Origin: Accumulibacter sp.
GTDB lineage: Bacteria; Pseudomonadota; Gammaproteobacteria; Burkholderiales; Rhodocyclaceae
DNA: 64,000 bases
Reading direction: 5' to 3'
NCBI GenBank assembly: GCA_024235695.1
Contig: JACKLX010000011.1
Coordinates: 1-64,000 of the forward strand
Below are positions 6,864 through 42,235 of this stretch, in pieces. The notes beneath the pieces were generated by a model, which worked only from the letters and a program-made list of their open reading frames with translations, did not search any database and had not been told where the DNA came from. Each line of letters opens with the position of its first letter. The stretch's first letter is position 1. Position numbers and translations under genes: made by a program.

Positions 6864-8213
6864 ATGCTCGACGATGATCGAAGCAAACGCGACGCAAGCA
6901 CCGCGGCCGTTCCCGGCGGACGGTGGTCCAGGCTTGCCCGACTGGGTGTTCTCGCCAGCGGTGTTGCCGGCAGTATGCTGGTACAAGGCACAAGACAGTT
7001 GGCCCAAGGCAAGCGTCCGCGAATTGGCGACTTGCTGCTGGGGTCTGCGAACGCTTACCGCGTTGCCGATCAGCTTGCCCGGCTGCGCGGTGCTGCGATG
7101 AAGTTCGGGCAACTGTTGTCCATGGATGCAGGCGATCTGTTGCCGCCGGAGTTTGCCGCTATCCTGGCGCGCTTGCGCGCCGACGCCAGAGCCATGCCAA
7201 TGAGCCAGTTGGTGAGTGTGCTCGACGCCAACTGGGGGCGTGGCTGGAACCGTCATTTCCGGCAGTTCTCCTTCACGCCGATGGCGGCAGCGTCGGTCGG
7301 CCAGGTCCATTCGGCGCAGACGAAGGACGGGCGGCGCCTGGCCATAAAAGTCCAGTACCCCGGTGTCCGCCAAAGTATCGACAGCGACGTCGATAATGTC
7401 GCCACCCTGCTGCGTGTTTCTGGACTGCTGCCCCGTGGACTGGATGTCAGACCGCTGCTGCGGGAATCGAAACGTCAGTTGCACGCCGAAGCGGATTATC
7501 TCGGGGAGGGCGCATGGCTCAGCCGCTACGCCGGACTGCTTGCCGACGCGCCCGAGTTCATGCTGCCCGAGGTGCACGCCGCACTGACGACGGAAGACGT
7601 CCTGGCGATGTCCTGCATGGGAGGCGTGCCGGTCGAATCCTTGCTGCGAGCCCCGCAAGCCGAGCGAGATCGCGTGGCAGAACTGCTGTTCAGGCTATTT
7701 TTCCGGGAAGTTTTCGAATTCCGATTGGTCCAGACCGACCCCAATTTTGCCAACTACCGCTTCGACAACGCCAGCCGCCAACTGATTCTGCTCGACTTTG
7801 GCGCCACCCGCCCCTACCCGGCAGCCGTCGTCGACGCCTATCGCCGGCTGATGGCAAGTGCCGTCGTCGGCGACCGGCAGGAAATGAGCAGGGCCGCCAG
7901 CGCCATCGGCTACTTTCGGGCTGACATCGGGGAGCGGCAGCGGCAACTCGTCCTTGATGTCTTCCTGCACGCCTGCGAACCCTTGCGCCACGCCGGCGCC
8001 TACGATTTCGGGAATTCGGGTCTGCCAGCGCGAATCCGCGACGCTGGCCTGGCGTTGAGCACCGAAAGGGATTCCTGGCATACGCCACCGGCGGATGCTC
8101 TGTTCTTGCACCGCAAGGCAGGCGGTCTTTACCTGCTGGCGGCAAAGCTCAAGGCGCGGGTCGATATTGGCGCCTTGTTCCTGCCTTACGCGTCGAGGCA
8201 GGTGCCGACATGA
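6864..8213 (+). CDS. ABC1/UbiB-family atypical kinase
   Basis: This 449-residue protein has the ADCK/UbiB hallmarks in order: the KxGQ motif (LRGAAMKFGQLLSMD), the Ala-rich nucleotide loop (MAAASVGQVHSA), the LAIKVQYPGV lysine, the acidic residue in EADYLGEGA, the catalytic loop (VQTDPNFANYRF, where many members have DPHPGN) and the metal motif LLDFGATR. Family members act on or near quinone biosynthesis through an atypical ATPase/kinase. The ATG at 6864 (MLDDDRSKR) has an AAGCGAGG upstream; an in-frame GTG at 6822 is less likely. Lying in a cluster of membrane and redox genes, it may support quinone or lipid homeostasis; this is inference. Confidence 0.85.
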   Translation: MLDDDRSKRDASTAAVPGGRWSRLARLGVLASGVAGSMLVQGTRQLAQGKRPRIGDLLLGSANAYRVADQLARLRGAAMKFGQLLSMDAGDLLPPEFAAILARLRADARAMPMSQLVSVLDANWGRGWNRHFRQFSFTPMAAASVGQVHSAQTKDGRRLAIKVQYPGVRQSIDSDVDNVATLLRVSGLLPRGLDVRPLLRESKRQLHAEADYLGEGAWLSRYAGLLADAPEFMLPEVHAALTTEDVLAMSCMGGVPVESLLRAPQAERDRVAELLFRLFFREVFEFRLVQTDPNFANYRFDNASRQLILLDFGATRPYPAAVVDAYRRLMASAVVGDRQEMSRAASAIGYFRADIGERQRQLVLDVFLHACEPLRHAGAYDFGNSGLPARIRDAGLALSTERDSWHTPPADALFLHRKAGGLYLLAAKLKARVDIGALFLPYASRQVPT

Positions 8214-8331
8214 GCCGGCAGCGAGATACTGAATGCTCAGGCCTGCCGTCCAATCGTCGCCGTGCGTCGTTCCGGGCAGGGGTTGGCAGAGGCAGATGGC
8301 TACCTGCTTTCGATAGACCAGGGCAGCAAGC

Positions 8332-8832
8332 ATGACGACTCCGATTTTCCGATTCGATACTCCCGAAGCCGTCGCCGACTGGTATGCCATCGACGATCGC
8401 GTCATGGGCGGGATCTCGGCCAGCAGGATGGCTTTTCATAGCGAAGGGCATGCCGCCTTCTCGGGATCGCTTTCTGTTACCAACAACGGCGGCTTTGCGT
8501 CCGTCCGCTCACCGGTGATAGTGTCCGCTAGCGTGGGCGGCTCAGCCTGTTTGCTCACCGTGCGCGGTGACGGCAAACGCTACAAGTTCAGCATCCGGAC
8601 TGGCGCCGAGCTCGACGGCGTCAGTTACCAGGCGGCCTTTCAGCCACCGGCTGAGGAGTGGACCATGATCGAACTGGCTGCAGCCGATTTTATCCCGACC
8701 TGGCGAGGGCGCGTCCTCGACCACCTGCCTCCGCTTGCCATCTCATTGGCAAAACAAGTGGGCCTTCTGATCGCCGATCGACAAATGGGTCCGTTCAAGC
8801 TCGATCTGCGCGCGATCGAACTTGTCGGCTGA
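8332..8832 (+). CDS. CIA30-family protein
   Basis: This is a 166-residue single-domain protein matching the complex I intermediate-associated protein 30 (CIA30) family: FRFDTPEAVADWYAIDDRVMGGISASRM, NNGGFASVRS, YKFSIRTG and the closing FKLDLRAIELV. The family has a galactose-binding-like beta sandwich. In mitochondria it assists complex I assembly; the role of bacterial single-domain members is not established. It lies 118 bases after the ABC1 kinase and 13 bases before the histidine phosphatase. Confidence 0.85.
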   Translation: MTTPIFRFDTPEAVADWYAIDDRVMGGISASRMAFHSEGHAAFSGSLSVTNNGGFASVRSPVIVSASVGGSACLLTVRGDGKRYKFSIRTGAELDGVSYQAAFQPPAEEWTMIELAAADFIPTWRGRVLDHLPPLAISLAKQVGLLIADRQMGPFKLDLRAIELVG

Positions 8833-16865: not shown

Positions 16866-17919
16866 GCCGACAGGTACGGCCGATACGGACCCGCGGCGCG
16901 AGAAGAAGAAGCGCTCCGGGCACGGCCGCAACGGCGCCGAGGACTATCCCCGCGCGCCGCGCATCGCGGTCGCCCATGCCCGCTTGAAACACGGCGATCG
17001 CTGCCCCGAGCCGGGTTGTGAGGGTCGCTTGTACGTGCAACGACGAGCGCCGGCGCTGCTGGTTCGCGTGACCGGGGTGGCGCCTCTGGCGGCGCAGGTC
17101 TATGAACTGGAACGGTTGCGCTGCGGACTCTGTGGCACGGTGTTCACGGCCGAGCCACCGGCAGGGGTCGGCGAGACGAAATACGACGAGACCGCCGCGG
17201 CGATGATCGCGCTTCTGAAGTACGGCTGCGGTTTGCCGTTCCACCGCATTCAGCGGCTCGAGAAGGCGTTGGCCATCCCCTTGCCGGCGGCGACCCAGTG
17301 GGAGGTCGTGCAGCAGGCGGCGGCACGTCTGACGCCGGCCTTTGCGGAACTGGCCGAGCAGGCGGCCGAGGGGTCGGTGCTCTACAACGACGATACGACG
17401 ATGCGCATCCTGAACTTCACCCAGGAGGCGCGCAGCGAGGCGCTGCCGCCGGGCGCTCGCGCGGATCGCACCGGGGTGTTCACTTCCGGGCTGGTCGCCG
17501 AGACGGCACACGGTCCGATCGCCTTGTTCAAGACCGGGCCCTGCCATGCCGGGGAACACCTCGCCGAGGTGCTCGACCGCCGCGAGGCGCCGGACCCGCC
17601 GATCCAGATGTCCGATGGCTTGTCTCGCAACAAGCCGGGCGATCATCCGACCCAGGCGGCTTCCTGTCTTCCGCATGCGCGACGCAAGTATGTCGACGTG
17701 GCCAACGCCTTTCCCGACGAAGTCGCCTTCGTCCTCAAGATGCTGCGCGAGGTCTTCCGCACCGACCAGCAGGCGCGGCGGGAAGGTCTTTCGCCACCGG
17801 ATCGCCTGCTCCTGCACCAGCAGGAGAGCGCCCCGCGCATGCAGGCGCTCGAGGACTGGATGGCCAGCCAGTTCGCGGAACACATCGTGGAGCCTCACTC
17901 GGGGCTCGGGCAGGCGATC
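16866..17919 (+). pseudogene. tnpC: IS66 tnpC internal fragment
   Basis: This stretch repeats 20160-21213 of the complete IS66 copy with only scattered substitutions, including the zinc-finger-like CPEPGCEG/CGLCG region and the catalytic-core sequence LYNDDTTMRILN. It lacks both the N-terminal part and the C-terminal part of TnpC. At 17920 the match stops and an unrelated frame continues to a stop at 17953-17955. It is a dead second copy. Its near identity to the other copy makes recombination between the two possible. Confidence 0.85.
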
Positions 17920-18060
17920 GTGCGCGTCACCGGGAGTCACCTGTGTGCGGTCTAAATCGCCCCGAGTCTTGCGGAGGCTCTATCTCTTTAGGCGATGGAG
18001 CCATGAAGAGATCAACGAGGTTTTCACCCAAAATCGTCGAGCGCGCGGTGCGCACGGTGT

Positions 18061-19841: not shown

Positions 19842-21561
19842 GCCGGCGCCGGCAGAAGCCGCCCCGGCGGCTGCAGATCCCGATTCAGGAGCTCAACGCC
19901 ATTGTCGAGCGCACCCGCGACGGTGCATTGCCCGAGGCCGAGCAGGCCACCCTCAGGGCGGCGGTGGACACCCTCGCGCGGGTGACCGCCGAGCTCGAGT
20001 CGACGCAGACCACGCTGGCGCGGGTGCAGCGGATCGTCTTCGGCTCGCCGAGCGAGCGCACGGCCGCGGTTCTCGGGGAAGCGAAGACGGGCGAGCGTCC
20101 ACCGGCCAACGCCCGACGAGTCCGCCGGCAGCGGCCGGCGAAACGGACCCCGGTGGTGCGCCGACAGGTACGGCCGATCCGGACCCGCGACGCGAGAAGA
20201 AGAAGCGCCCCGGGCACGGTCGCAACGGCGCCGAGGACTATCCCCGCGCGCCGCGCATCGCGGTCGCCCATGCCCGCTTGAAACACGGCGATCGCTGCCC
20301 CGAGCCGGGTTGTGAGGGTCGCTTGTACGTGCAACGACGAGCGCCGGCGCTGCTGGTTCGCGTGACCGGGGTGGCGCCCCTGGCGGCGCAGGTCTATGAA
20401 CTGGAACGGCTGCGCTGCGGACTCTGTGGCACGGTGTTCACGGCCGAGCCACCGGCCGGGGTCGGCGAGACGAAATACGACGAGACCGCCGCGGCGATGA
20501 TCGCGCTTCTGAAGTACGGCTGCGGTTTGCCGTTCCACCGCATCCAGCGGCTCGAGAAGGCGTTGGCCATCCCCTTGCCGGCGGCGACCCAGTGGGAGGT
20601 CGTGCAGCAGGCGGCGGCACGCCTGACGCCGGCCTTTGCGGAACTGGCCGAGCAGGCGGCCGAGGGGACGGTGCTCTACAACGACGATACGACGATGCGC
20701 ATCCTGAACTTCACCCAGGAGGCGCGCAGCGAGGCGCTACCGCCGGGCGCTCGCGCGGATCGCACCGGGGTGTTCACTTCCGGGCTGGTCGCCGAGACGG
20801 CACACGGTCCGATTGCCTTGTTCAAGACCGGGCCCTGTCATGCCGGCGAACACCTCGCCGAGGTGCTCGACCGCCGCGAGGCGCCGGATCCGCCGATCCA
20901 GATGTCCGATGGCTTGTCTCGCAACAAGCCGGGCGATCATCCGACCCAGGCGGCTTCCTGTCTTCCGCATGCGCGACGCAAGTATGTCGACGTGGCCAAC
21001 GCCTTTCCCGACGAAGTCGCCTTCGTCCTCAAGACGCTGCGCGAGGTCTTCCGCACCGACCAGCAGGCGCGGCGGGAAGGTCTTTCGCCACCGGATCGCC
21101 TGCTCCTGCACCAGCAGGAGAGCGCCCCGCGCATGCAGGCGCTCGAGGACTGGATGGCCAGGCAGTTCGCGGAACACACCGTGGAGCCTCACTCGGGGCT
21201 CGGGCAGGCAATCTCGTACATGCAGAACCACTGGCAGAAGCTGACGCTCTTCCTGCGCGTGCCGGGCGCCCCGATTGACAACAACATTTGCGAGAGAATC
21301 CTCAAGAAGGCGATCCTGCATCGGAAGAACGCGTTGTTCTATCGCACCTTGAACGGTGCGCGCGTCGGCGATCTGTTCATGAGCCTGATTCATACCGCGG
21401 AACTGCACCAGATCGAGCCGTTCGACTACCTCGTCACCCTGCAGCGCCATGTGGCGACCGTTGCGCTCGATCCGTCGGCGTGGATGCCTTGGAACTACAC
21501 CGAGGCGTTGGCCCGCGCCGAGGCAGCCGCCGCCAACGAGGCTGAAGCGCCGCCGGACTGA
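19838..21561 (+). pseudogene. tnpC: IS66 transposase TnpC with a single-base frameshift
   Basis: The N-terminal part (ATG 19838, MSRRRQKPPRRLQIPIQELNA; leucine-zipper-like region to RVQRIVFGSPSERTAA) and the C-terminal part (from about 20162: GTADPDPRREKKKRPGHGRNG, the CPEPGCEGRL zinc-finger region, the DDE core LYNDDTTMRIL, final EAEAPPD) lie in different frames. The span is 1724 bases, not a multiple of three, and the switch occurs between about 20040 and 20165. No obvious slippery heptamer is seen, so this looks like a mutation or an assembly error rather than programmed shifting. The full-length product would have about 574 residues. Confidence 0.85.
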
Positions 21562-28161: not shown

Positions 28162-30445
<2,284 letters not shown>

Positions 30446-30449
<4 letters not shown>

Positions 30450-30721
30450 CCGACCGCGACCGCTTGCTCGAGGACACCAGCAAGGATGTGCGCCGCCTCG
30501 AGAAACATGAGCAGGCACCGGCGACCTGGGTCGGCATCGCCTTTTACGGCGGCACCGTCGGGCTACTGTTCGTCGTGCCGATCGTCGGCGGCGCCTATCT
30601 CGGCCGTTGGCTGGACTCGCTGGCCGCCGGTTACTCGGTGCGCTGGACGGTGAGCCTGATCGTTCTCGGCATCGCGCTGGGTGCCTATAACGCCTACCAT
30701 TTCATGAGGGGACGCCAATGA
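30446..30721 (+). CDS. atpQ: AtpI/AtpQ-like small membrane subunit
   Basis: This 91-residue protein has a basic/acidic N-terminus and two membrane helices (TWVGIAFYGGTVGLLFVVPIVGGAYLGRWLD; VRWTVSLIVLGIALGAYNAYHF). The GAYLGRWLD motif is that of AtpI/AtpZ-type proteins, which correspond to AtpQ in N-ATPase operons and are thought to assist c-ring assembly or Mg2+ supply. Its stop overlaps the atpB start; the atpR gene normally found at this point is missing. Confidence 0.8.
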
Positions 30722-31464
30722 GCGGCAGCGAACTGGCCGGCGGCGTGCTGTTTCATCTCGGGCCGCTGGCGATCACCGACACCGTCGCCACCACCTGGGG
30801 CGTGATGCTCTTTCTGGCGATCGCCGCCCGGCTGTTGACCTACCGGCTGGCGCCACGACCGAGCCGCCGGCAGACCATCGCCGAAGGCGTCGTCGCGGTC
30901 GTCGAGCGCGCCATCGGCGAGGCCGTACCAGCGGGCGCGGTGCGACGCGTGCTGCCCTTCGTCGCCAGCTTGTGGATCTTCGTCCTCGCCGCCAACCTTG
31001 CCGGCCTGATCCCAGGGGTGCACGCACCCACCCGAGACCTCTCCGCCACCGCTGCCCTGGCGGCGCTGGTGTTCGCCTCGACCCACTGGTACGGCATACG
31101 CGCCAGGGGCCTGCGTGCCTACCTGCGGCACTACACCAAGCCCAGCCCGATCCTGCTGCCGTTCCACATCATCAGCGAATTGACGCGCACCCTGGCGCTC
31201 GCCATCCGCCTCTTCGGCAACATCATGAGCCTGGAAATGGCGGCCCTGCTGGTGCTGCTGATCGCCGGCTTCCTGGTGCCGGTGCCGCTGCTGATGTTGC
31301 ATGTCATCGAAGCGGTGGTGCAGGCCTACATCTTCGGCGTGCTGGCGCTGATCTACATCGGCGGCGCGATCGAGCCGGGCGAAACCGATGAAGCCGAACC
31401 ATCGCGCGCCGTCTCGCCGGCGGCAGCGGGCGCCGAAAACTCGAACGACAAGGAGGAATCATGA
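30718..31464 (+). CDS. atpB: N-type ATPase subunit a
   Basis: This 248-residue membrane protein keeps the subunit a core: LWIFVLAANLAGLIPGV, then PILLPFHIISELTRTLALAIRLFGNIMSLEMAALLVLL, which contains the essential Arg of the ion channel (in LALAIRLFGN), and VIEAVVQAYIFGVLALIYIGGAI. A charged tail (GETDEAEPSRAVSP...) closes the protein. It works with the c-ring in ion translocation. It overlaps both neighbours by 4 bases. Confidence 0.95.
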   Translation: MSGSELAGGVLFHLGPLAITDTVATTWGVMLFLAIAARLLTYRLAPRPSRRQTIAEGVVAVVERAIGEAVPAGAVRRVLPFVASLWIFVLAANLAGLIPGVHAPTRDLSATAALAALVFASTHWYGIRARGLRAYLRHYTKPSPILLPFHIISELTRTLALAIRLFGNIMSLEMAALLVLLIAGFLVPVPLLMLHVIEAVVQAYIFGVLALIYIGGAIEPGETDEAEPSRAVSPAAAGAENSNDKEES

Positions 31465-31727
31465 ACGAATTGCACCTTTTCAGCATGCTGTCGACCATCG
31501 TCGCCGGCGTTGTGATCGCGCTCGGCACCATGCTGCCGGCGGTTGCCATGGGTCGCGCCATCGCCAGCGCGCTGGAGGCACTGTCGCGCCAGCCCGAAGC
31601 GGAGAAGACGATCACCCGTACGCTGTTCATCGGCCTGGCGATGATCGAGTCACTTGCCATCTACTGCCTGGTGATTGCGCTGATCGTGCTGTTCCGCAAT
31701 CCCTTGTTGGAATACTTTCTGAAATAG
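31461..31727 (+). CDS. atpE: N-type ATPase subunit c
   Basis: This 88-residue hairpin has two helices, FSMLSTIVAGVVIALGTMLPA..., and LFIGLAMIESLAIYCLVIALIVLF, joined by the RQPEA loop. The ion-binding Glu is E63, followed by S64 and Y68, as in Na+ c-subunits. Aligned to Ilyobacter tartaricus, P28 is kept (P26) but Gln32 is Met30, and no second carboxylate appears in helix 1. The Na+ signature is thus incomplete, and coupling to Na+ or H+ is open. atpF follows after 9 bases. Confidence 0.95.
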   Translation: MNELHLFSMLSTIVAGVVIALGTMLPAVAMGRAIASALEALSRQPEAEKTITRTLFIGLAMIESLAIYCLVIALIVLFRNPLLEYFLK

Positions 31728-31736
31728 GGACCCGCC

Positions 31737-32489
31737 ATGCAATTCGATTGGACGACCTTCGTTCTCGAAGTCCTCAATTTCCTTGTCCTGGTGTGGATTC
31801 TCAAGCGCTTTCTCTACCAGCCGGTGCTCACGGTGCTCGATTCGCGGCAGGCGCGGATCGAGTCGGAAATGGCGCAAGCCGCCCGATTGCAGCAGGAGGG
31901 CGCGAGCCTGCGGCAGCAGTACGCGGAACGCCTGGCGCAGTGGGCGGAGGAACGCGAGCAATTGCGACAACAATTGCAGCAGGAGCTGGGGCAGCTGCGC
32001 GCCGCCGGCATGGAGAAGATCAGACAGTCGCTGGCCGACGAAGACGGCAAGGCGCGGGTGCGAAACGCCGCCGCGACCGCCAGCCACGAGGCGGGCCTGA
32101 TCCGGCTGGCGGCCAGCGAGGCCTACCGGAACGTCGCCGCGATGCTCCGGCGCCTGGCCTCGCCAATGCTGACGGCAAGCATCGTGCAGTTGCTGCTCGA
32201 AGACCTGGCGGCATTGCCCGAAGAGCAGCGCGCGGTGCTGCGCAGCGCCGCCGAAAAGCTCGCTGCCGATGGCCAGGCCGAAGTCGCTTCGGCGCACCCG
32301 CTGGACGACGGCACGCGGCAGCAGATCGCGCGCGGCGTTTCGGCGGCCGCCGGACGAAGCCTGCCGGTCACGGTCAGCGCGGACGCGGCGCTGATTGCCG
32401 GCGTGCGTGTCGCCGTCGGCGAATGCCTGCTGCACGCCAACCTGCTCGACGAACTGGCCTTCTTCAGGCGACAGAATGGCCGTGCCTGA
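31737..32489 (+). CDS. atpF: N-type ATPase subunit b with delta-like C-terminus
   Basis: This 250-residue protein has one N-terminal membrane helix ([24 protein letters not shown]), a long charged coiled coil (about residues 40-130, rich in QQEL/AQW/EEREQL) and a C-terminal globular part ending [25 protein letters not shown], which resembles the end of subunit delta. N-ATPases lack a separate delta gene and have this extended b subunit; the length fits. Its end overlaps the likely atpA start by 14 bases. Confidence 0.9.
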
Positions 32490-33936
32490 AGGCGTCGTGA
32501 GCATGGCAAAAGAAGACTATCGTTTTGCCCTGCGCCTGTCCGAACGCGGCGAGGTGGTCGGCATTGGCGACGGTATCGCCTGGATACGCGGGCTGCCGTC
32601 GGTACGGCTCGACGAGCTGATCGCTTTCGGCGACGGCAGCACCGGTCTGGTCTTTCAGCTCGGCCGTGAACTGCTGGGCGCCATTCTGCTGGCGCAGAAG
32701 CACGGCGTCACTGCCGGCATGGCCGTCACCCACGCCGGCCGCAACCTGGCCATCGGCGTCGGCGACGCCCTGCTCGGGCGGGTGGTGGACCCGCTCGGCA
32801 ATCCACTCGACGCCCTGCCGCCTTGCGAGACCGCCGAATTCCGCTGCCTCGACGCCGCCGCACCAGCGATCATCGAGCGCGACTTCGTCAGCCAGCCGCT
32901 GTACACCGGCTGCAAGATCGTCGACACGCTGATCCCGATCGGCAAGGGGCAGCGGCAGCTGATCATCGGCGACGACGGCCTCGGCAAATCGTCGCTGGCG
33001 CTTGACGCGGTGCTCAGCCAGCGCGGTCGCAACGTCCTCTGCGTCGTTGTCCTGATCGGTCAGCCGCGCTCGGCAGTCGCCGGCACCGTCGAGGCGCTGC
33101 GGCGTGCCGGCGCGCTCGACTACACCGCGGTGGTGGTCGCCGAGGCGAACGCGCTGCCGGGCTTTCGCTACCTCGCACCCTTCGCCGGCTGCGCCCTGGC
33201 CGAGCACTGGATGCGCGCCGGCCGCGACGTGCTGGTGGTCTACGACGACCTCAGCCGCCACGCCCAATCGTACCGCGAGCTTTCCCTGCTGCTGCAGCGG
33301 CCGCCCGGACGCGAGGCCTTTCCCGGCGACATCTTCTACCTCCATTCGCGCCTGCTGGAACGGTCGACGGTGCTGCTGCCCAAATTCGGCGGCGGCAGCA
33401 TGACCGCGCTGCCGATCATCGAAACGCGGCAGGGCGAGTTGTCGGCGTACATCCCGACCAACCTGATTTCGATCACCGACGGCCAGATCTACTTCGACGC
33501 CAGGCTGTTCGCCGCGGGCATGCTGCCGGCCATCGACATCGGCCGCTCGGTATCGCGCATCGGCGGCAAGGCGCAGCATCCGGCGATCAAGACCGCGTCG
33601 GCGCGGATTCGCCTTGACTACCTGCAGTTCCTCGAACTCGAGCTCTTCGCCCGCTTCGGCACGCGGCTCGATGCCGCCGTCGAGGAGAAACTGCGGCGCG
33701 GCCGGCAACTGCGCGTGCTGCTCAAGCAGGACCGGCTGGCGCCGCTGTCCGAACTGGCGCATCTGGCCTGGCTGCTGGCCTACGGCGACGGGCTGCTCGA
33801 CAGCCTTTCACCGCCGGCCGCCGGCGACCTGTTGCCGACGCTCTTCGCAGCCGTCGCCGACGCCGGCCTGACCCTCGAGGACGCACGCGAACGCTGGCTG
33901 ACAACGCTCGCCGCCAGCCTGGCGGTAGCGCCATGA
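32476..33936 (+). CDS. atpA: N-type ATPase alpha subunit
   Basis: This is a 486-residue non-catalytic nucleotide-binding subunit. The order is a beta barrel ([17 protein letters not shown]), [28 protein letters not shown] (P-loop reads GDDGLGKS instead of the usual GDRQTGKT), [43 protein letters not shown], and the conserved [13 protein letters not shown] and [16 protein letters not shown]. The ATG at 32476 overlaps atpF; an ATG at 32503 (MAKEDYRF) with GAAGG upstream is a good alternative. The 3' end overlaps atpG by 4 bases. Confidence 0.9.
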
Positions 33937-34733
33937 GCCAGCGACGCGAGATCGAGGCACGGCTGGCACTTTATGGTGACCTCGCCGGCATCCTCGGGGC
34001 GATGCGCAGCTTTGCGCTCGCCGAGCTGCACCGCGTCAGCCGTCGCGAGGAGGCGCAGCAACAGGTGGTACGCGTTCTCGGCCAATCGCTGCAGGAGGTC
34101 TCCCCGTTCCTGCCGCCGCAGGAGCCCGCAGCCGCCGACGTCTGGCTGCTGCTCGGTTCGGTACGCGGCTTCTGCGGCAGCTTCAACGAGGATATCGTGC
34201 GCGCCTGGCGGGGCGTCGCTGACGCCCGGCAAGCGGTCATCGTCGTTGGCCAACGCCTGCAGGCGACGATGGCCGAAGAGCTGCGTACGGTGCCGGTGGC
34301 AGGTGCGGACGGAGGTCTCGACGCCGCTGCCGCCATCGACCGCATTCTCGCAGCCATCACGCTGACCCGCCGCCGCGTTGGGCAAGCGTCCGGCCTGATC
34401 GCCTGCGTGCACGACGAGGATGGCGTTCGCCGGCAACGTCTGCTGCCGCTGCCGGTGACCACCGCTGGTGCCGCCCTGCCGCCGCTGACCAACGAACCGC
34501 CGGCAATGGTCGCGGCGGGCGTCGCCGAGCATTTCCTCTTCCACCAACTGCTCGCCCTGCTGCTGCGCTCGATTCGCGTCGAGAATCGCCAGCGGCTGAT
34601 GCAGATGGAAAACGCCCTGCACCACCTCGAACAAGGCAGCGACGAACTCGCGCGCCAGCGCAACCGGCTGCGGCAAGAGGAAATTGTCGAGGAGATCGAG
34701 GTGATTACCGGCATCCGCGGCGGCATGCACTGA
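33933..34733 (+). CDS. atpG: N-type ATPase gamma subunit
   Basis: This 266-residue rotor subunit has an N-terminal helix ([28 protein letters not shown]), the [15 protein letters not shown] segment and the C-terminal helix with [24 protein letters not shown]...[19 protein letters not shown], which pairs with the N-terminal one as in all gamma subunits. It is the last gene of the operon. No clear terminator follows before the convergent TIR-WD40 gene. Confidence 0.9.
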
Positions 34734-35114: not shown

Positions 35115-37985
35115 TCAGCTCGTGCCTGCCGGCGGCAAAGGAAGCTTCGGACACGCCGGCAGGTAAGGCGCCTTGCCAAGGAAGCGCTGCCAATCGGACG
35201 CCGCGATGTTGCGGGTCAGCCGCGAGCACGCCTCGACCAGCAGATCGTCCGGTCGCAGCAGCCAGGCGCGCAGCGTGCCGTCGTGTTCAAGCGTCGCGAG
35301 ATACCTGCCGCCGGGGCTGAACTGCAGCGCCGTCGGGGCCACGACGTGTTCGAGGCGGGCCACCTCGGTCTGGGCGGCGATTTCCCAGATGCGCACGCTG
35401 TCTTCGGCACCGGTCACGGCGAGGTACAGGCCATCGGCGCTGAACGCGCACTGGCGTCCGCCACGCGCCTCGTCGACCGTACCGATGTCCCTGCCAGTGC
35501 TGCTCTCGCGCACCGTTACGGCGGTGTCCGCGGTATTGATCGCGACCAGACGGGTATCGGCGCTCAGGGCGCAAACGCTTCCGGTCAGACCGCTGCGCTC
35601 GGCGCCGACGCGCCGGGTGGCGATTTCCGACAGAGCGGGGGCGCTCCAGACGCGGAGGCTGAGCGGTACGCCGATCCGGCCGGCGCTGCCGTGGGTGACC
35701 GCGACCACCTGCCCGTCCGTGGCGACGGCGAGCTGCTTGTCGACCACCGGCTCGGCCAGCGCGATCGTCGCCAGGAGCTGCGGCGGCTCGACCTGCCACA
35801 GTTGCAGCGTGTCGCGGTCGCTGGCGCCGGCCAGGTAGCGCGCATCGGGACTCAGCGCCAGCGCCGTCGCCTCGCCGTCGAGCGCAAAGCTGCGGCGGGT
35901 CTTGCCAGAGCTGGCGTCGATGACCCGGACCTGCCCACCGGCCGCCAGCGCCAGCACCTTGCCGTCGGCGCTGAGCGCGAACCGCGAGGCGGCCGGAGCG
36001 AGATCGACCAGAGCGCGAGCGCCGCTGCCCGCCAGTTCCCAGGTGTTCGCCGTGACCCTCGCCGCCGATCCGTCAGCGTCACGTTCGAGCACGCCGAAGC
36101 GCGTCTCGTCGGCGCTGAACAGCAGCGCAAAGGCCTGTTCGCTGGCGGCGTGGCGCGCGACATCGCTGCCGTGGCCCAGGATGCGCCAGACATCGATGCC
36201 CTTGCCGGAGGCAATCGCGACATCGCCTCCGTCGGGGCTGAAGGCCAGCGCCGGAAAGTCGGATTCGGAGGTGAACCGCGCGACGTCGCGATCGCTGCCG
36301 GTATCGACGATCCGCACGCCGTAACCATGACCGTAGCCGCTGTCGTCGTCGCGCAGCGCCAGGTAGCGCGCGCCCGGCCCGAGCGCCAGCGGGAACTCGC
36401 GCCGGAGTTCCCGCAGCAGCTTCCAGTCCTTGACCGTCCAGATCCCGACCCTGCCCGGATTCTCGCCAAAGTGAATCGCCAGCTGCGTCCCGTCGGCGCT
36501 GAACAGCGGCGCGCGAGCCAGCGGCGCGGCCACCGCCAGCGACACCAGCGGCGCTACCTGACCCTGCCGCAGCCGGGCCATCGCCCAGATAACCGGCTGA
36601 TCGTCGCCGACCAACCCGGCAAGATGGGCGCCATCGCGGCTGAACGACGGCCAGAGAACGCGTGGCAGGCGCGCGATCTCGCGCCCGCCGGGCAACTCCA
36701 CGATACGCGTCAAGCCCCGCTCCCGGCCGCCTGTGGCGTCGTAGCGGCTGCTGGTCACCACCAGCTGGCCACCGCCGGGCGCGATGGCGATCCCCTGCAC
36801 GCGTCCCGTGTCGCGAAGGCTCGCGAAAGGCGCCGCGGCGCCGATCCGCCAGACGTCGATCGCCCCTTCGAGGTCGCCCGGCTCGATCGTCACCAGGAAC
36901 TGCCCATCGCTGCTGAGTACCACCGAATTGGCGCTGACCGCTCGTTGTCGCCCACCGGCCGGCTGAAAGCTGCCGCTGTCCCAGATGCTGGTCGTCGACA
37001 GAAACCGGCTCGCGGCGATCAGCTGCCCGCCGGCGCCGAAGACGATGTCGTCGAAGCGTTCGGCGGGCTGCGCGATGGCCTCGAGTCGGGCGATCCGCTG
37101 CGGCATGGTTGCCAGCGCCCGCCGCAACGCCAGGTCGGCTTCGAGCGCGCGCGCGCCGACTGCCGAGAGGCGCCGTACCGCCTCCGCCGCGAGCTGGACG
37201 CTGACTTCGACCGGCGAGCTGGCCGATCCCGGCGCCGGCCGCTGCTCGCGCACCCGCTCCGACGCCGACGACAGCCGGCGCGCGACGGCGTTCGCCTCCT
37301 GCCGCGCCGACTCCTGGCGCTGGAAGTGGAACAGCGTCGCCAGGATCGCGATCGCCACCAGCGACACGGCCGCGGCGCCGAGCAGCAGAAAGCGGCGGTT
37401 GGTCGCCTGCCGACGACTGTCGATGATGTAGCGCGTCTGCAATTCGGTCGGCTGCGGCGCCTTGCGCGGACCCAGCGTCAGCCACTGCTCGGCCGCTTTC
37501 AGGTCGCCGCCACGTAGGGCCAGGCTGCCGTCGCGGCCTTTCGCTTCCCATTCACGCGATCGCAGCAACAGGCGCGTATGCGCCTGCAGCCAGTCGAGGT
37601 CGGTATCCACAGCCGACAACAGGGTCTGCAGCGCGGTTTCGAAATCGTCTTCCTCGCGGAAGAAAATCCAGTTCAGCCTGGCCAGCGCCGGCGGCACCTG
37701 AGCGGCGTCGGCTTGACGCCAGACGAGCGGGATAACCCGCTTGTTCTGCGCATCGGCATGGTCGAGCTCGCGCCGGCAAACCGTCGAGGCGAGAGACTCC
37801 GGGCTCAGGACGAAGGCGAAGGCCTCGGCCGCGTCGATCGCGGCCTCGATCTGCTTCATCCAGTCAGCGGTCGGCGGAATGCCTTCCCAATCCACCCAGG
37901 TCTCACGGTCGCGCGAAAGAAGGCCCCGATGCAGGCGGCGGACGAAATCCGAGTCCTGCCGCGAATAGGAGATGAAGATTGGCAT
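35115..37985 (-). CDS. TIR-TM-WD40 repeat protein
   Basis: This 956-residue protein has an N-terminal TIR domain (about residues 1-115: IFISYSRQDSDFVRRLHRGL, WVDWEGIPPTADW, FVLSPESLASTVCRREL with the putative NADase Glu73, IPLVWR), a linker, one hydrophobic segment (199-221, LLLGAAAVSLVAIAILATLF) and a C-terminal region of about 630 residues built of WD40-like blades (e.g. LVTIEPGDLEGAIDVWRIG, LAFSPDGGDVAIASGKGIDVWRI, LALSPDARYLAGASDRDTLQLWQV, CAFSADGLYLAVTGAEDSVRIWEI). If the helix spans the membrane, the propeller is outside and the TIR inside. The ATG at 37985 starts the TIR fold, with a weak ribosome binding site. It follows the STAND gene by 227 bases. Confidence 0.85.
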   Translation of the reverse strand: MPIFISYSRQDSDFVRRLHRGLLSRDRETWVDWEGIPPTADWMKQIEAAIDAAEAFAFVLSPESLASTVCRRELDHADAQNKRVIPLVWRQADAAQVPPALARLNWIFFREEDDFETALQTLLSAVDTDLDWLQAHTRLLLRSREWEAKGRDGSLALRGGDLKAAEQWLTLGPRKAPQPTELQTRYIIDSRRQATNRRFLLLGAAAVSLVAIAILATLFHFQRQESARQEANAVARRLSSASERVREQRPAPGSASSPVEVSVQLAAEAVRRLSAVGARALEADLALRRALATMPQRIARLEAIAQPAERFDDIVFGAGGQLIAASRFLSTTSIWDSGSFQPAGGRQRAVSANSVVLSSDGQFLVTIEPGDLEGAIDVWRIGAAAPFASLRDTGRVQGIAIAPGGGQLVVTSSRYDATGGRERGLTRIVELPGGREIARLPRVLWPSFSRDGAHLAGLVGDDQPVIWAMARLRQGQVAPLVSLAVAAPLARAPLFSADGTQLAIHFGENPGRVGIWTVKDWKLLRELRREFPLALGPGARYLALRDDDSGYGHGYGVRIVDTGSDRDVARFTSESDFPALAFSPDGGDVAIASGKGIDVWRILGHGSDVARHAASEQAFALLFSADETRFGVLERDADGSAARVTANTWELAGSGARALVDLAPAASRFALSADGKVLALAAGGQVRVIDASSGKTRRSFALDGEATALALSPDARYLAGASDRDTLQLWQVEPPQLLATIALAEPVVDKQLAVATDGQVVAVTHGSAGRIGVPLSLRVWSAPALSEIATRRVGAERSGLTGSVCALSADTRLVAINTADTAVTVRESSTGRDIGTVDEARGGRQCAFSADGLYLAVTGAEDSVRIWEIAAQTEVARLEHVVAPTALQFSPGGRYLATLEHDGTLRAWLLRPDDLLVEACSRLTRNIAASDWQRFLGKAPYLPACPKLPLPPAGTS

Positions 37986-38212
37986 GGCATCACTCGTCTG
38001 GGCCGCTGCAGCGCTCTCGCGCGGCGCCTGCAAACAGCACTGGTTCTGGCAAAAGCGCGCCTGCTGCACGGCCCTCGCCCGGACCGTTCGAGCGGCAACA
38101 TGCGATGCGCCATGGCGTGCCATGCAAAGAAGATGGCCGCACTGCGCGAACCGTTGGCCGCCGCAATTTCCATCCGACCTCTTTCAGCGCTGGCCCACGG
38201 CAAGGTCACCTG

Positions 38213-40372
38213 CTATCGGCCGAGCGCCTCGCACATGTCGTAGGAGGTGACATCGGGCGGTCTTTCGGGATCGGCGTATTCGACCAGGACATAGACCACA
38301 GTCAGGCATCCCCATCCCTGATAGGACGCGGCGAATCCGTTTGCCGGTCCGGCCGTGAGGAGCTTTTCGCGGAAGGTCTCGTGCGCCATGTAGTAACTGA
38401 TCTGGCTTGCCGAGGCGAGTGGCCCGGCCAGGCTTGCCGGCGTCGGATAGAGCTCGTAGCGATAGATCGGTTTGCCGTCCGACGCCTTCCAGCCGGACGC
38501 CGTCTTGGTCGCACCGAACTGCATCTCCAGCGACTTGCCCGCGGCCCTGGCGAGCTGCCGGATGGCCTCGATGTCGCCGGTCAGGAAGGCGCGCTTGGTC
38601 CGCTCGGAGTTGGTCAGCCGTTCGAGAAGTTGCGCCGTCCGGTCTGCTTCGGCGCGAGCCACTTCCTGCGCGGCGATCGCCGCCTGGACGGCCCGATCCT
38701 TGGCCTTCGCCTCGTCCTTGGCAATTTTCATCTGCCACCCCGCCCCGATGGCGGCGGCGAGGAGAAGCGGCACAAGCACGGCGATTGCCGACAGAAAGCG
38801 TTTGTGGTTTCGCAGGGCGGTGTTCTCCGCCTTCAGCCTTTCCTGCTCGGATTCTCTGGTCTTGCGCGCGATTTGCTGCTCCTGTTCGAGTGCCGCCGCT
38901 TCCTGCTGACGCCTCTGTTCCTCGCTCCAGGCCTGCTCGCTGGCGCGGAGAAAAGCGATGGTGCCTGCGAACTCCTCCTCGCTGCCGTAGCGCTTCGCCC
39001 ACGCCGAGAAAGGCCGCTCCTGCGCCAGCCATTGCAGCGCCCGCTCCAGGCCGGGATTGCGCAGCAGGGCTTCCTCGCCTTGCTGCCACAGCCGTGCGGT
39101 GACTTTCAAGCGCTGGTAGAGCGACGCGCAAGTGGCCTCCTGCTCGACCCAGTCGCCAAGTGTGCGCCATTGCCGAATCAGGCTCTCGTGCCCGATGTCG
39201 AGGAGCGTCGATGGCGTCAGCGGTCTGCCGCTTGGCGGTACGATGAAGCTGCGGTCGGGGCGACGAAAAGCCTCGACGACCGGATAGACGTCCTGCGCTG
39301 TCACGCCGGCGACGCTGGCCACATCGGCCAGGATCGCCGGCGAGCGCGTGTCGCGCCTGCCCATTCCGCGCTCGGTGAGGCAGCGGAACATCACCTCGGC
39401 GATGGCGCGTTGTGCGGCCGGGAGTTCGCCAAGCACCTCGTCGGCATGATTCGAGAGCGCGCGCGCCAGACCACCGAGCGCCGTGTAGTCTGCCTGCGTA
39501 AGAAGCGGTGGCTGACCCGTATTTTCGGCGCGCGCGCGGGCACGCTGCCACATCCGCATCAGCGCGTGCTGCAGCAGCGGCAACTGGTCCGGGTCGGGGC
39601 CGAAGTCGTTGAGCAGACGATTGACCAGATGCGGCTCGACGCTGCCACCGAACACCCGCGCCGGACCGACGATCGCCAGCTGGCACTGCTCGCGGGTGAT
39701 CCGCGGTGTCAGGTACTGACTGTCGTTGATCGCTTCGGGCAGCCCGCTGAACACCGCGCATTCGCCGAGGAAATCCGAGCGCATGGTGATCACCACGTAG
39801 ATCGGCAGCTCGCGTTGCGCCGTCGATGCGAGCAGGAGCGAAACGAAAGCGTCGGCCTCGTCGCGGTCGCCCTTCTCCCAATAGCGAAAGATCTCCTCGA
39901 ACTGGTCCACCACCAGCAGCAGGTTGCCGTGCGCGGCGAGCCGGGTTTCGCGCACCAGATCGATCAGGCCCAGGGGCCCACTGCGCAACGCCGCTGCGGT
40001 CAGGGGCGTCGGCAGGTCGCCGCTCTCGTCGCCGCGCTGTCGGCCCTCGCTGCCGCTGCGTTCGCCTTGTGCCGACAGACATGCGGCGAGGCGGTCGAGC
40101 GGATGGTCGCCCGGAGTCATCGTCAGGACGCGCCATTCGGCGCCGGCATCGGCCATGAAACCCGTCTCCAGCGCCGGAATCATGCCCGCTCGCACCAACG
40201 ACGACTTGCCGCAGCCGGATGGGCCGACCACCGCCAGGAAGCGTCTCTGCTGCAGGCGACCAAGAAGCGCGTCGACCTGCGCTTCGCGACCGAAGTAGAT
40301 GTCGGCCTCGTCGGGGCGGAACGGCCGCAGCCCGGGATACGGCGCATCGCTGAAATCGATCCGACTGCCCAC
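38213..40372 (-). CDS. STAND-type NTPase (nSTAND1-like) with membrane segment
   Basis: This 719-residue protein opens PYPGLRPFRPDEADIYFGRE, the entry signature of nSTAND1 P-loop NTPases. Walker A is GPSGCGKSSLVRAG (50-63) and Walker B LLLVVDQFEEIF (151-162), with MRSDFLGECA and DQLPLLQHALMRMW after. A coiled coil (about 480-520) leads to a membrane helix (526-547, LSAIAVLVPLLLAAAIGAGW) and a C-terminal domain of unknown fold ending at CEALGR. STAND proteins act as signal-responsive switches. The GTG at 40372 has GAAGG upstream and lies 3 bases after the TIR gene stop, so the two are cotranscribed and probably coupled. Confidence 0.85.
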   Translation of the reverse strand: MGSRIDFSDAPYPGLRPFRPDEADIYFGREAQVDALLGRLQQRRFLAVVGPSGCGKSSLVRAGMIPALETGFMADAGAEWRVLTMTPGDHPLDRLAACLSAQGERSGSEGRQRGDESGDLPTPLTAAALRSGPLGLIDLVRETRLAAHGNLLLVVDQFEEIFRYWEKGDRDEADAFVSLLLASTAQRELPIYVVITMRSDFLGECAVFSGLPEAINDSQYLTPRITREQCQLAIVGPARVFGGSVEPHLVNRLLNDFGPDPDQLPLLQHALMRMWQRARARAENTGQPPLLTQADYTALGGLARALSNHADEVLGELPAAQRAIAEVMFRCLTERGMGRRDTRSPAILADVASVAGVTAQDVYPVVEAFRRPDRSFIVPPSGRPLTPSTLLDIGHESLIRQWRTLGDWVEQEATCASLYQRLKVTARLWQQGEEALLRNPGLERALQWLAQERPFSAWAKRYGSEEEFAGTIAFLRASEQAWSEEQRRQQEAAALEQEQQIARKTRESEQERLKAENTALRNHKRFLSAIAVLVPLLLAAAIGAGWQMKIAKDEAKAKDRAVQAAIAAQEVARAEADRTAQLLERLTNSERTKRAFLTGDIEAIRQLARAAGKSLEMQFGATKTASGWKASDGKPIYRYELYPTPASLAGPLASASQISYYMAHETFREKLLTAGPANGFAASYQGWGCLTVVYVLVEYADPERPPDVTSYDMCEALGR

Positions 40373-40375
40373 CGC

Positions 40376-41809
40376 TCAGGCCTTCACGTCGTGCACCACG
40401 GTCTGCAGGCATTCGTCGAGTTTCCCGGAGCGACAGTCGATCCACTGCCAACCGGGGATCTCGATGCCGACTCCCGCCTGTTCGTGCGGCGCCCCGTCGA
40501 ATACCGCCAGCGCCACCGGTGGATCGGCACGCTGGCTGACGATCTTGCGACACCAGCGCAATTTGCTGCGCACCCAGTTGAGGCTCGCCGCGCCGTACAC
40601 CAGCATCAGCCCGTCGCATTCCCTGAGATTGTCTTCGAGGTCCTTGCGGATGTCTTCCGGGCTGCCCTCCTGAAGCGCCAGCGAATAGCCGATTCCCTGG
40701 GCAAAGAGGTACTTGCCGACTCGCTCGGCCAGGGCCCGGTCAACGGCATCGGTGTCGAGAAACAGCAGCAGGTCCGTGCTTGCCCTCGGTTTTGCCGGCG
40801 GTGGTTCGCGCCTGGCTTCCGCCAGCACGGCCGTCTTGAATTCCTCGAGGCCGCAGGCACGTACGCTGGCCCCCTGCAGCAGTTCCCGTTGCTCGGCGTC
40901 GGCGACCTCATCGACAGCCAGATCGCGCGCGCGCCATTGCACGATCGGCAGGCCGGAGCGCAACGCGAGAGTGTGCTGGAGCGCCGGGAAGGCACTCGCC
41001 GAATCATTCGGCCGGCGGCCGACGACGCCGCTCAGCAATTGCACGAAGACCTTGCACTGGCCGAGATCGGCGGTCATCGCCTGCGCGAAGGTCTGCGCGC
41101 TGTCGCGCGGGTAATAGCTGGTCGGCAGAATCCGCAGTCCCATCTGCGCCAGGTAGCGGCGCAATTCTTCCCGTCGCGGCTCCAGGTCGTCGGTCACCTC
41201 GGCGAGGAACACCGCCGGCCCGGGAGAAGCGGCCGGCGGGTGATCGGCTTCGGCGAGGCGCTGCAGTTCCTGCGCGATTTCGAGCGCGAGCTGATTCACC
41301 CGGCTGTAGTACTCGGGCTCGTTTGCGGTTGGCACCGGCAGGCCAAGCGTGCGCGGCGTGCGCGCCGGCCCGTCTTCGATCCACATCCGGTAGGGAAGCA
41401 AATCGCCGAACTCGGGGGGAATACGCCGGCGATCGTCGATATGATCGAGTTCGACGACAAAGACACGCGAGCCGGCACGCTGCTTGTGCTGCACTTCGCA
41501 GCGAAAGGCTTCACGCTCGCGGCGGCACCAGTCGGAGGCGAGGTAAGCCGGCGACATGATCACCAGCAGGCTGGCGGTGTTTTTCACCGATTGCGCGATG
41601 TCGGCGCTGAACGGGCGATTGCCCGCCAGTTCGTGGTCCACCCACAAGGCGAAGTCGCGCGGCCGGTCGAACAGCTTGCGCCGGACAACCGACTCGACGT
41701 CGCGGACGAACGTCGAAACCCAACCCTGCTGTGCGCCCGAGAGCGGCTCGTTGTCGATGTGGGCGTAACTGACGAAGATGTCGTGCTCACAGCCGGGGAC
41801 GAAAGCCAA
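40376..41809 (-). CDS. TIR domain protein with further alpha/beta domains
   Basis: The 477-residue protein begins at a TTG (41809) with GGGAGAGG 3 bases upstream: LAFVPGCEHDIFVSYAHIDN. The N-terminal TIR domain (about 9-135) includes DFALWVDHELAGNRPFSADI and LLVIMSPAYLASDWCRREREAF with the candidate catalytic Glu98. A central domain (about 190-300: AVFLAEVTDDLEPRREELRRYL, GQCKVFVQLLSGVVGRRP) resembles DUF4062-like stress/NTPase-associated domains. The C-terminal part (about 345-460: LLLFLDTDAVDRALAERVGKYL, CDGLMLVYGAASLNWVRSKLRWCRKI) is another Rossmann- or TIR-like domain. It leads the operon and is therefore the likely first product. Confidence 0.8.
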   Translation of the reverse strand: MAFVPGCEHDIFVSYAHIDNEPLSGAQQGWVSTFVRDVESVVRRKLFDRPRDFALWVDHELAGNRPFSADIAQSVKNTASLLVIMSPAYLASDWCRREREAFRCEVQHKQRAGSRVFVVELDHIDDRRRIPPEFGDLLPYRMWIEDGPARTPRTLGLPVPTANEPEYYSRVNQLALEIAQELQRLAEADHPPAASPGPAVFLAEVTDDLEPRREELRRYLAQMGLRILPTSYYPRDSAQTFAQAMTADLGQCKVFVQLLSGVVGRRPNDSASAFPALQHTLALRSGLPIVQWRARDLAVDEVADAEQRELLQGASVRACGLEEFKTAVLAEARREPPPAKPRASTDLLLFLDTDAVDRALAERVGKYLFAQGIGYSLALQEGSPEDIRKDLEDNLRECDGLMLVYGAASLNWVRSKLRWCRKIVSQRADPPVALAVFDGAPHEQAGVGIEIPGWQWIDCRSGKLDECLQTVVHDVKA

Positions 41810-42235
41810 GTTCCTCTCCCTGTTCAAGGTGCCTCGGTACAGGTAAGCGACGCCTGCCGCCAAGTCAGCCTGATAACAGAATAAGCGCTGCCCGAGCGCT
41901 TGCCAACCCTTGTCGGCGGTTGCCCTCTCCCTTTGGCGCAGAATCACTCGGGCCTGCTCGCGCCGGTTAGCGCGCGCGTCGTAACAGCGCCGCCGGACGC
42001 AAGCGTTGCAGCCCCGCGTCCGCAAGCGAGGACGGGCCCCACGGACAGTTCTTCAAAGCAGTGCAAGAAAGGCCAGAAAACCCGACAGAGAGGTCTCTGG
42101 CCCGTTCTTCGTCTGGCACCTTTGCCGGGTCGCCGCCCGGCTTGCCCGGCGTTCAGCTAGCCATACCAGCTGAGTTCCCCCGGGTGAACAAGGGTGGCCC
42201 CGGAAATCGCACCTCGAATCCTGAACCACCGAAAC
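41810..42235. other. Intergenic region upstream of the TIR operon
   Basis: No gene is supported. It should contain the promoter of the TIR/STAND operon on the minus strand and the 3' end of the PEP-CTERM gene transcript. The only structure is a hairpin at 42071-42102. Confidence 0.45.
42071..42102 (-). terminator. Hairpin downstream of the PEP-CTERM gene
   Basis: GGCCAGA (42071-42077) and TCTGGCC (42096-42102) form a 7-bp perfect stem around an 18-base loop. There is only a short T/A-rich tail, so if it terminates transcription from the minus-strand PEP-CTERM gene (ending 42236) it is a weak intrinsic terminator. Confidence 0.35.

Follow-up and report, generated by a model that had tools for sequence, protein, structure and literature searches.

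Most bacterial STAND receptors characterised to date are single chains located in the cytosol. Avs proteins, which are cytosolic single polypeptides with a TPR-type sensor, include the SIR2-STAND protein Avs5, and Thoeris consists of the TIR protein ThsB and a ThsA (SIR2-SLOG/Macro) partner. DUF4062 proteins cleave NAD+, Swarozyc stops phages, and TEP1 and NWD1 join DUF4062 to NACHT and WD40; these statements, and the remark that activation of TEP1 and NWD1 is still speculative, come from the available part of PMC13174449. The available part of PMC7159879 quotes NADase activity for TIR domains and gives N-terminal transmembrane (TM) segments for about 28% of iSTAND systems. We analysed a stretch of 64,000 nucleotides from Accumulibacter sp., referred to as the window, which belongs to contig 11 of a draft genome of 3.8 Mb with 83.7% completeness and carries a TIR gene, a STAND gene, and a TIR-WD40 gene on its minus strand. 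An earlier reading of the bare sequence, the original prediction, had taken these as one operon. The three open reading frames (ORFs) proved real, with matches to TIR_2, nSTAND1, and TIR_2 plus WD40:

40376..41809, minus strand: gene 1 (P0001), putative effector with three TIR-like domains; 477 amino acids, TTG start; from Pfam, alignments, an AlphaFold2 model, and VIA-align
38213..40372, minus strand: gene 2 (P0002), nSTAND1 NTPase-coiled coil-TM-coiled coil-YEATS fold; 719 amino acids, GTG start; from Pfam, TM prediction, and a model with fold search
38216..38539, minus strand: YEATS-fold putative sensor domain of gene 2, with H664-E-T666-F667, G686-W687-G688, and C689/C714; from fold search and a weak pYEATS (PF20305) match
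38741..38797, minus strand: TM helix of gene 2, residues 526-544; Kyte-Doolittle value 2.48
35115..37985, minus strand: gene 3 (P0003), TIR-TM-WD40, judged to lie outside the conserved unit; 956 amino acids; from Pfam and the neighbourhoods of relatives

We propose that genes 1 and 2 together probably form a split, membrane-spanning alarm resembling NOD-like receptors (NLR-like), in which the STAND switch activates a TIR NADase. The gene 2 protein would be anchored in the inner membrane, with its nSTAND1 NTPase in the cytoplasm and a swappable YEATS-fold sensor probably in the periplasm. Binding of a ligand would lead to nucleotide exchange and oligomerisation of this protein, and then to clustering of the gene 1 protein, whose first TIR would cleave NAD+ or make an NAD-derived signal, so that the cell stops. 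The degenerate TIR-like domains 2 and 3 of gene 1 may act as a scaffold coupling the first TIR to the STAND ring. As read from the sequences, the proposal is carried by the domain make-up, the pairing of the two genes, the intact and lost catalytic positions, the TM helix, and the swapping of sensors and effectors. What we infer is that the STAND protein oligomerises, that gene 1 acts as an NADase, what triggers the switch, and that it is used against phages; the phage or envelope sensing and NAD depletion suggested in the original prediction are likewise putative.

Genes 1 and 2 lie 3 nucleotides apart, and genes 2 and 3 are separated by 227 nucleotides. When 150 genomes of the family were searched, gene 1 was matched in 11, in six of them beyond the first TIR, and gene 2 in 28. 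Out of 398 genomes of the phylum, 50 matched gene 1, nearly all by the TIR only; the TIR-only ones were left out, and this search supplied the loci L154 and L155. All 11 gene-1 relatives that matched past the first TIR (the window, L052-L057, L100, L101, L154, and L155, L100 being truncated by the beginning of its contig) had an nSTAND1 gene directly downstream. In addition, five open frames from four genomes carried TIR and nSTAND1 in a single chain (by coordinates). The co-occurrence expected by the original prediction was thus found for genes 1 and 2, while homologues of gene 3 occurred independently, as described below.

The sensor and the effector were both exchanged among the relatives. 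Besides the window, 13 pair loci were compared (L052-L060, L100, L101, L154, and L155), of which L054, L058, and L060 are short contigs that break off inside the STAND gene or shortly behind it. The STAND C terminus was WD40 in L052, L053, L055-L057, and L154, TPR-like under Pfam cut-offs in L155, and cut off in L054; it was YEATS, preceded by a gene-1 relative, in the window, L100, and L101. A shorter TIR protein was paired with nSTAND1 in L058-L060, where the STAND end either matched no Pfam family with E <=0.01 (L058, L059) or was cut off (L060). A profile search of the genome contigs with the C-terminal domain of gene 2 yielded four loci (L100-L103) from 35 pattern matches. L100 and L101 hold orthologues of the window pair, gene 2 being 49-50% identical over residues 11-717, with 51% in a further comparison. 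At L102 (the G049 locus, identical to L061) and L103, the effector is swapped: a SIR2_2+TIR_2 gene overlaps an nSTAND1 gene with a YEATS-type domain. The pairing in 11/11 loci, the single chains, and this SIR2-TIR swap bear out the earlier idea of TIR and STAND as a membrane-linked switch with its sensor past a single TM helix. Profile A2 matched the window alone in 369 genomes of the class, and A6 had hits in 6 genomes among the 399 searched from the order, namely the window, G1223 (the L100 contig), G1264 (YEATS part), and three others that were dropped, being confined to the coiled coil.

It may be noted that some genomes hold more than one such pair. At L101 (2280-14423), TIR-DUF4062 and nSTAND1-YEATS genes are followed about 3.7 kb on by SIR2-TIR and nSTAND1-WD40 genes, and an upstream AAA regulator matches the AAA-HTH part of the PADLOC RtcR_PspF2 model (322 bits). 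The window genome (G000) has a second pair, of the TIR-DUF4062 type with nSTAND1-WD40, on contig 2, and 15 TIR_2 matches, 14 above cut-off, in its 3.8 Mb draft. A 370-residue hydrophobic protein, similar by eye, follows the TIR and nSTAND1-WD40 pair at L056 (4501-5619) and L057 (5011-6117), loci from G079 and from the window genome's own second copy, and may be a third partner of this subtype.

The TIR_2 match of P0001 had an E value of 5.7e-18 and 66 bits (cut-off 28). Its DUF4062 (PF13271) match was below threshold (20.7 bits, cut-off 24.7), and the orthologues at L100 and L101 exceeded it (33.3 and 33.0 bits). The protein is made of three consecutive TIR-like domains (about 1-150, about 197-335, and about 346-477). 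The TIR, STAND, and WD40 content named in the original prediction stood, whereas these three TIR-like domains and the YEATS fold of gene 2 had been overlooked in it. The catalytic Glu of the first TIR, E98, was kept in 10/10 aligned sequences (window included), as were S92, W94, and C95, all invariant. E98, and likewise E73 of P0003, kept in 5/5 aligned sequences including that of the window, are at the positions expected for a TIR Glu. Domain 2 is DUF4062-like and TIR/NDT-like, and lacks both motif Glu residues. In the alignment of the DUF4062 motif S-x-T-E-x-E, from which three loci were dropped and in which row L152 was out of frame, the second Glu was present in 10/10 usable canonical rows and replaced by an invariant Gln (Q278) in 9/9 gene-1 relatives; the first was Ala in the window and retained only in L100. 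Domain 3 is TIR-like with Lys where Glu is expected. In VIA-align, domains 2 and 3 both had matches of the TIR/NDT-like kind, but response-regulator receivers scored near domain 3. The AlphaFold2 model had a mean predicted local distance difference test (pLDDT) of 70.1; with the whole model, Foldseek returned 1395 matches with E <=10 and none with E <=0.001. Gene 1 was absent from the plasmid and viral-contig searches.

P0002 matched nSTAND1 (PF20703) over residues 11-433 with an E value of 2.7e-103 and 347 bits (cut-off 27.1). Its P-loop is intact, with the Walker A motif GPSGCGKS at 50-57, and its one clear hydrophobic helix (526-544) has coiled coil on either side. A single hydrophobic helix had been claimed for two of the three proteins, and this was confirmed, the second being residues 200-218 of P0003, a weaker stretch at 477-495 inside the propeller aside. 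In 14/14 STAND proteins, Lys and Arg were richer in the 20 residues before the TM helix than in the 20 after it. Cys made up 71/6800 residues before the helix (at most 489 residues per protein being taken) and 31/6088 after it (Fisher p = 6.5e-4, an optimistic value because the proteins compared are related). Exactly two Cys followed the helix in 13/14 STAND proteins, and two were invariant in the YEATS versions (5/5). These charge and Cys patterns favour, and do not prove, an N-in/C-out orientation with the sensor beyond the cytoplasm; this topology is inferred with moderate support.

The C terminus of gene 2 (about 612-719) was assigned to the YEATS fold by all 50 listed Foldseek hits. Sequence profiles of the domain retrieved no YEATS chain from the Protein Data Bank; only the fold search did. 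PF20305 (pYEATS) scored 15.6, 16.8, and 21.9 bits, all below the cut-off of 26.9, and was somewhat stronger in L061 and L103 than in the window. In YEATS domains, the pocket residues H-x-[ST]-[FY] and GWG serve in binding; GAS41 has H-x-S-Y ... GWG, and 5/5 STAND proteins carried H-x-[ST]-F and GWG, the motifs by which acyl-lysine readers are marked. As a Pfam model pYEATS exists, prokaryotic YEATS domains are already recognised, and a J. Bacteriol. paper of 2020 reportedly describes related domains; in the open-access literature we found no paper on pYEATS and none relevant on prokaryotic YEATS with STAND or TIR. Searches of plasmids, phages, and viral contigs did not turn up the domain. At L178 (G1264:C70), a free-standing protein (7531-8256) ends in the same YEATS-like domain, ahead of which a TM helix and a coiled coil were recognised by eye; this copy of the domain keeps GWG and not H-x-[ST]-F. 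A short ORF after it (8616-8804) resembles the C-terminal part of that protein. An NLR-like receptor that reads acylated lysine by a YEATS domain across the membrane from STAND, and activates a separate TIR or SIR2-TIR NADase, would be a speculative and rather unlikely form of the system, and we hold acyl-lysine sensing across the membrane in itself to be about as doubtful.

Several results weigh against the proposed alarm. The Cys depletion stems from the six WD40 versions (0.27-0.30% after the TM helix); the YEATS versions have 1.1-1.2% Cys there, with only two Cys conserved, and show no depletion. All the proteins compared are relatives and so are not independent points. The closest orthologues, L100 and L101, gave no PF20305 row at E up to 0.1, and the model of the first TIR of gene 1 is of low confidence, with a pLDDT of about 45-73. 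Among 169 plasmid records matching gene 2, five were inspected: a Caballeronia plasmid carried TIR with WD40-nSTAND1, and two Persicobacter, one Runella, and one Nostocales plasmid had no gene-1 match nearby. With a TIR neighbour in just 1/5 loci, nSTAND1 itself is therefore not tied to TIR. A PADLOC search of the three proteins gave weak partial matches only, and no model of a known system was convincingly matched. Among five other ORFs of the window that were searched, a methyltransferase-like gene matched mad2 weakly and the rest gave nothing; as far as these five go, no defence island is visible to support the locus. Finally, nSTAND1 pairs or genes adjoin contractile-tail genes at L052 (G133:C20) and at L053 and L185 (G094:C40), as judged from Pfam hits to tail sheath at L053, and by eye at L052 and for further tail-like genes in L185.

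The sensor might instead stay in the cytoplasm, the helix being a mere anchor and the YEATS domain reading acyl-lysine on cytoplasmic or phage proteins. Eukaryotic YEATS readers do act on intracellular acyl-lysine, the reader motifs are retained in all five STAND proteins, and the YEATS types lack the Cys depletion. This arrangement is possible and the less probable one, since it is opposed by the single helix with a cytoplasmic NTPase and an N-in charge bias in 14/14 proteins, by how strongly Cys is depleted in the WD40 versions, and by the free-standing G1264 protein, in which a TM helix and coiled coil seen by eye precede the same domain.

The pair may also be a regulated-death or stress module that is not directed against phages, and for example responds to envelope damage or to kin, or is coupled to contractile injection machinery. 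The TIR and nSTAND1-WD40 pairs beside tail-sheath genes, which come from two genomes of one genus (G133 and G094), would fit such a use, as would the lack of a visible defence island among the five further window ORFs searched. On the Persicobacter psychrovividus plasmid pPP2 (L182 1-11359), an nSTAND1 gene lies, by annotation, within a sheath/DUF4255 cluster, which also agrees with it. However, no tail genes were seen at the other pair loci, the window included, where not all neighbours were family-searched, and the SIR2-TIR swap together with the TIR/SIR2/STAND toolkit is that of known anti-phage systems. We regard a purpose of this kind as the less likely one and moderately favour use against phages over use against other stress; the link of such switches with contractile injection machinery may merit a survey.

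Gene 1 could instead serve as a TIR scaffold for the recruitment of further proteins and be no NADase, as the Glu position is lost in two of its three TIR-like domains. The invariance of S92, W94, C95, and E98 in the first TIR (10/10), and the replacement of gene 1 by SIR2-TIR at other loci, make this rather improbable, and a TIR NADase under the control of the STAND switch remains our preferred assignment.

P0003 matched TIR_2 over residues 3-123 (E value 2.1e-25, 90 bits, cut-off 28), along with WD40 repeats forming a propeller, and has its TM helix at 200-218 and the weaker stretch at 477-495. Its first 303 residues were matched in 32/150 family genomes, mostly by TIR only, and the protein in 23 of 28 genus genomes, mostly by fragments of TIR or WD40. 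Outside the window, G903:C324 and G901:C27 held the best long relatives in the genus, and neither showed a match to gene 1 or 2. The relative at L095 was 44% identical over about 950 amino acids and that at L096 29%; in the same genus, L186 (a short contig) reached 24% over residues 4-941, whereas for L187 the TIR part was 32% identical and WD40 lay in a second ORF. No gene 1 or gene 2 match was found in the stretches fetched around these four relatives. Conversely, a TIR-TM-WD40 gene was beside 0/13 other pair loci, the short contigs L054, L058, and L060 being uninformative downstream. The three-gene set was rejected as a conserved unit, and gene 3 is most readily read as a single-chain TIR receptor independent of the pair. 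The one operon of the original prediction, in which gene 3 would be a second receptor or co-effector of a single membrane-linked immune system, is accordingly very unlikely: the genes share a strand, a 227-nucleotide gap without a strong terminator, and a TIR, TM, and sensor logic, but the orthologous pairs L100 and L101 have no gene 3-like gene within about 7 kb downstream, no such gene was seen at the 13 other pair loci, and the stretches around four long gene 3 relatives gave no match to the pair. The trio of minus-strand genes looks like two units, the pair of genes 1 and 2 and a separate gene 3.

Long plus-strand ORFs (37979-41884 and 35283-37517) overlap genes 1-3 and, given the strong family matches of the minus-strand proteins, look like high-GC artefacts. 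Only a 5-pair stem (38149-38137) was found between genes 2 and 3, and terminator-like sites numbered 6, compared with 5.0 in shuffles. At 28666-34733 the window has an ATP-synthase operon opening with the beta and epsilon genes, an order we take to be N-ATPase-like. Close homologues of its gamma gene (78-80% identical) were found in 3 of the other 27 genus genomes searched, and genes 1-3 were not downstream of the ATPase operon in any of the three. The search for an insertion site covered both flanks in 28 genus genomes, the window's own included; the other flank was not syntenic, which left the insertion borders unset. Two plus-strand ORFs (16984-17955 and 20278-21561) have identical first 40 residues and are probably copies of a mobile element.

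Compared with described systems, the pair is not Thoeris: the best ThsB-type matches were 16.1 bits for P0001 and 24.7 bits for P0003, and the partner is an nSTAND1 protein. The N-terminal TIR of gene 1 matched FxsC (NCBIfam NF040588) at 55.3 bits, under the family cut-off of 130. Like Avs/AVAST systems including Avs5, as presented in the available part of PMC12931631, the pair combines a STAND NTPase with an effector of the NADase type and has its sensor at the C terminus; it differs in having its effector on a separate gene and an nSTAND1 protein with a TM helix and exchangeable sensor, and no Avs model was among the PADLOC hits of P0002 at E up to 0.01. The EACC1/EAD kind of nSTAND1 conflict systems, in the available parts of PMC8195603, PMC7159879, and PMC10907252, also has a central nSTAND1 and separate effector genes including TIR. 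The sensor in the window is YEATS (WD40 in relatives) behind a TM helix and not FGS/CLec, and Pfam scans of the window and relatives gave no EAD or bDLD domain. The C-terminal domain of gene 2 shares its fold with the readers GAS41, Taf14, and AF9, of a family best known from human and yeast chromatin, the motif likeness being seen for GAS41; unlike these eukaryotic readers, it is bacterial and is attached to a STAND protein, past a TM helix. If the proposal is true, bacterial YEATS domains would gain a function as immune sensors, and the pair would represent a testable class of membrane-spanning NLR-like receptors with a separate effector and an exchanged sensor, which could reveal how bacterial immune switches sense across the cell membrane.

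The pair also resembles Swarozyc, TEP1, and NWD1 (PMC13174449). It has in common with them a DUF4062-like domain and a STAND-type NTPase, and six of the relatives also have WD40 propellers; the NAD+-cleaving fold and the switch logic proposed for TEP1 are also alike. In contrast to Swarozyc, a canonical TIR with its Glu precedes the DUF4062-like domain in the window, and the latter has lost both Glu of S-x-T-E-x-E; the Swarozyc-type catalytic Glu is thus absent from the DUF4062-like domain of gene 1. The window pair is, moreover, split over two genes, with a membrane helix and a YEATS sensor, and would, if the proposal is true, be a split bacterial counterpart to the animal DUF4062-NACHT-WD40 proteins TEP1 and NWD1.
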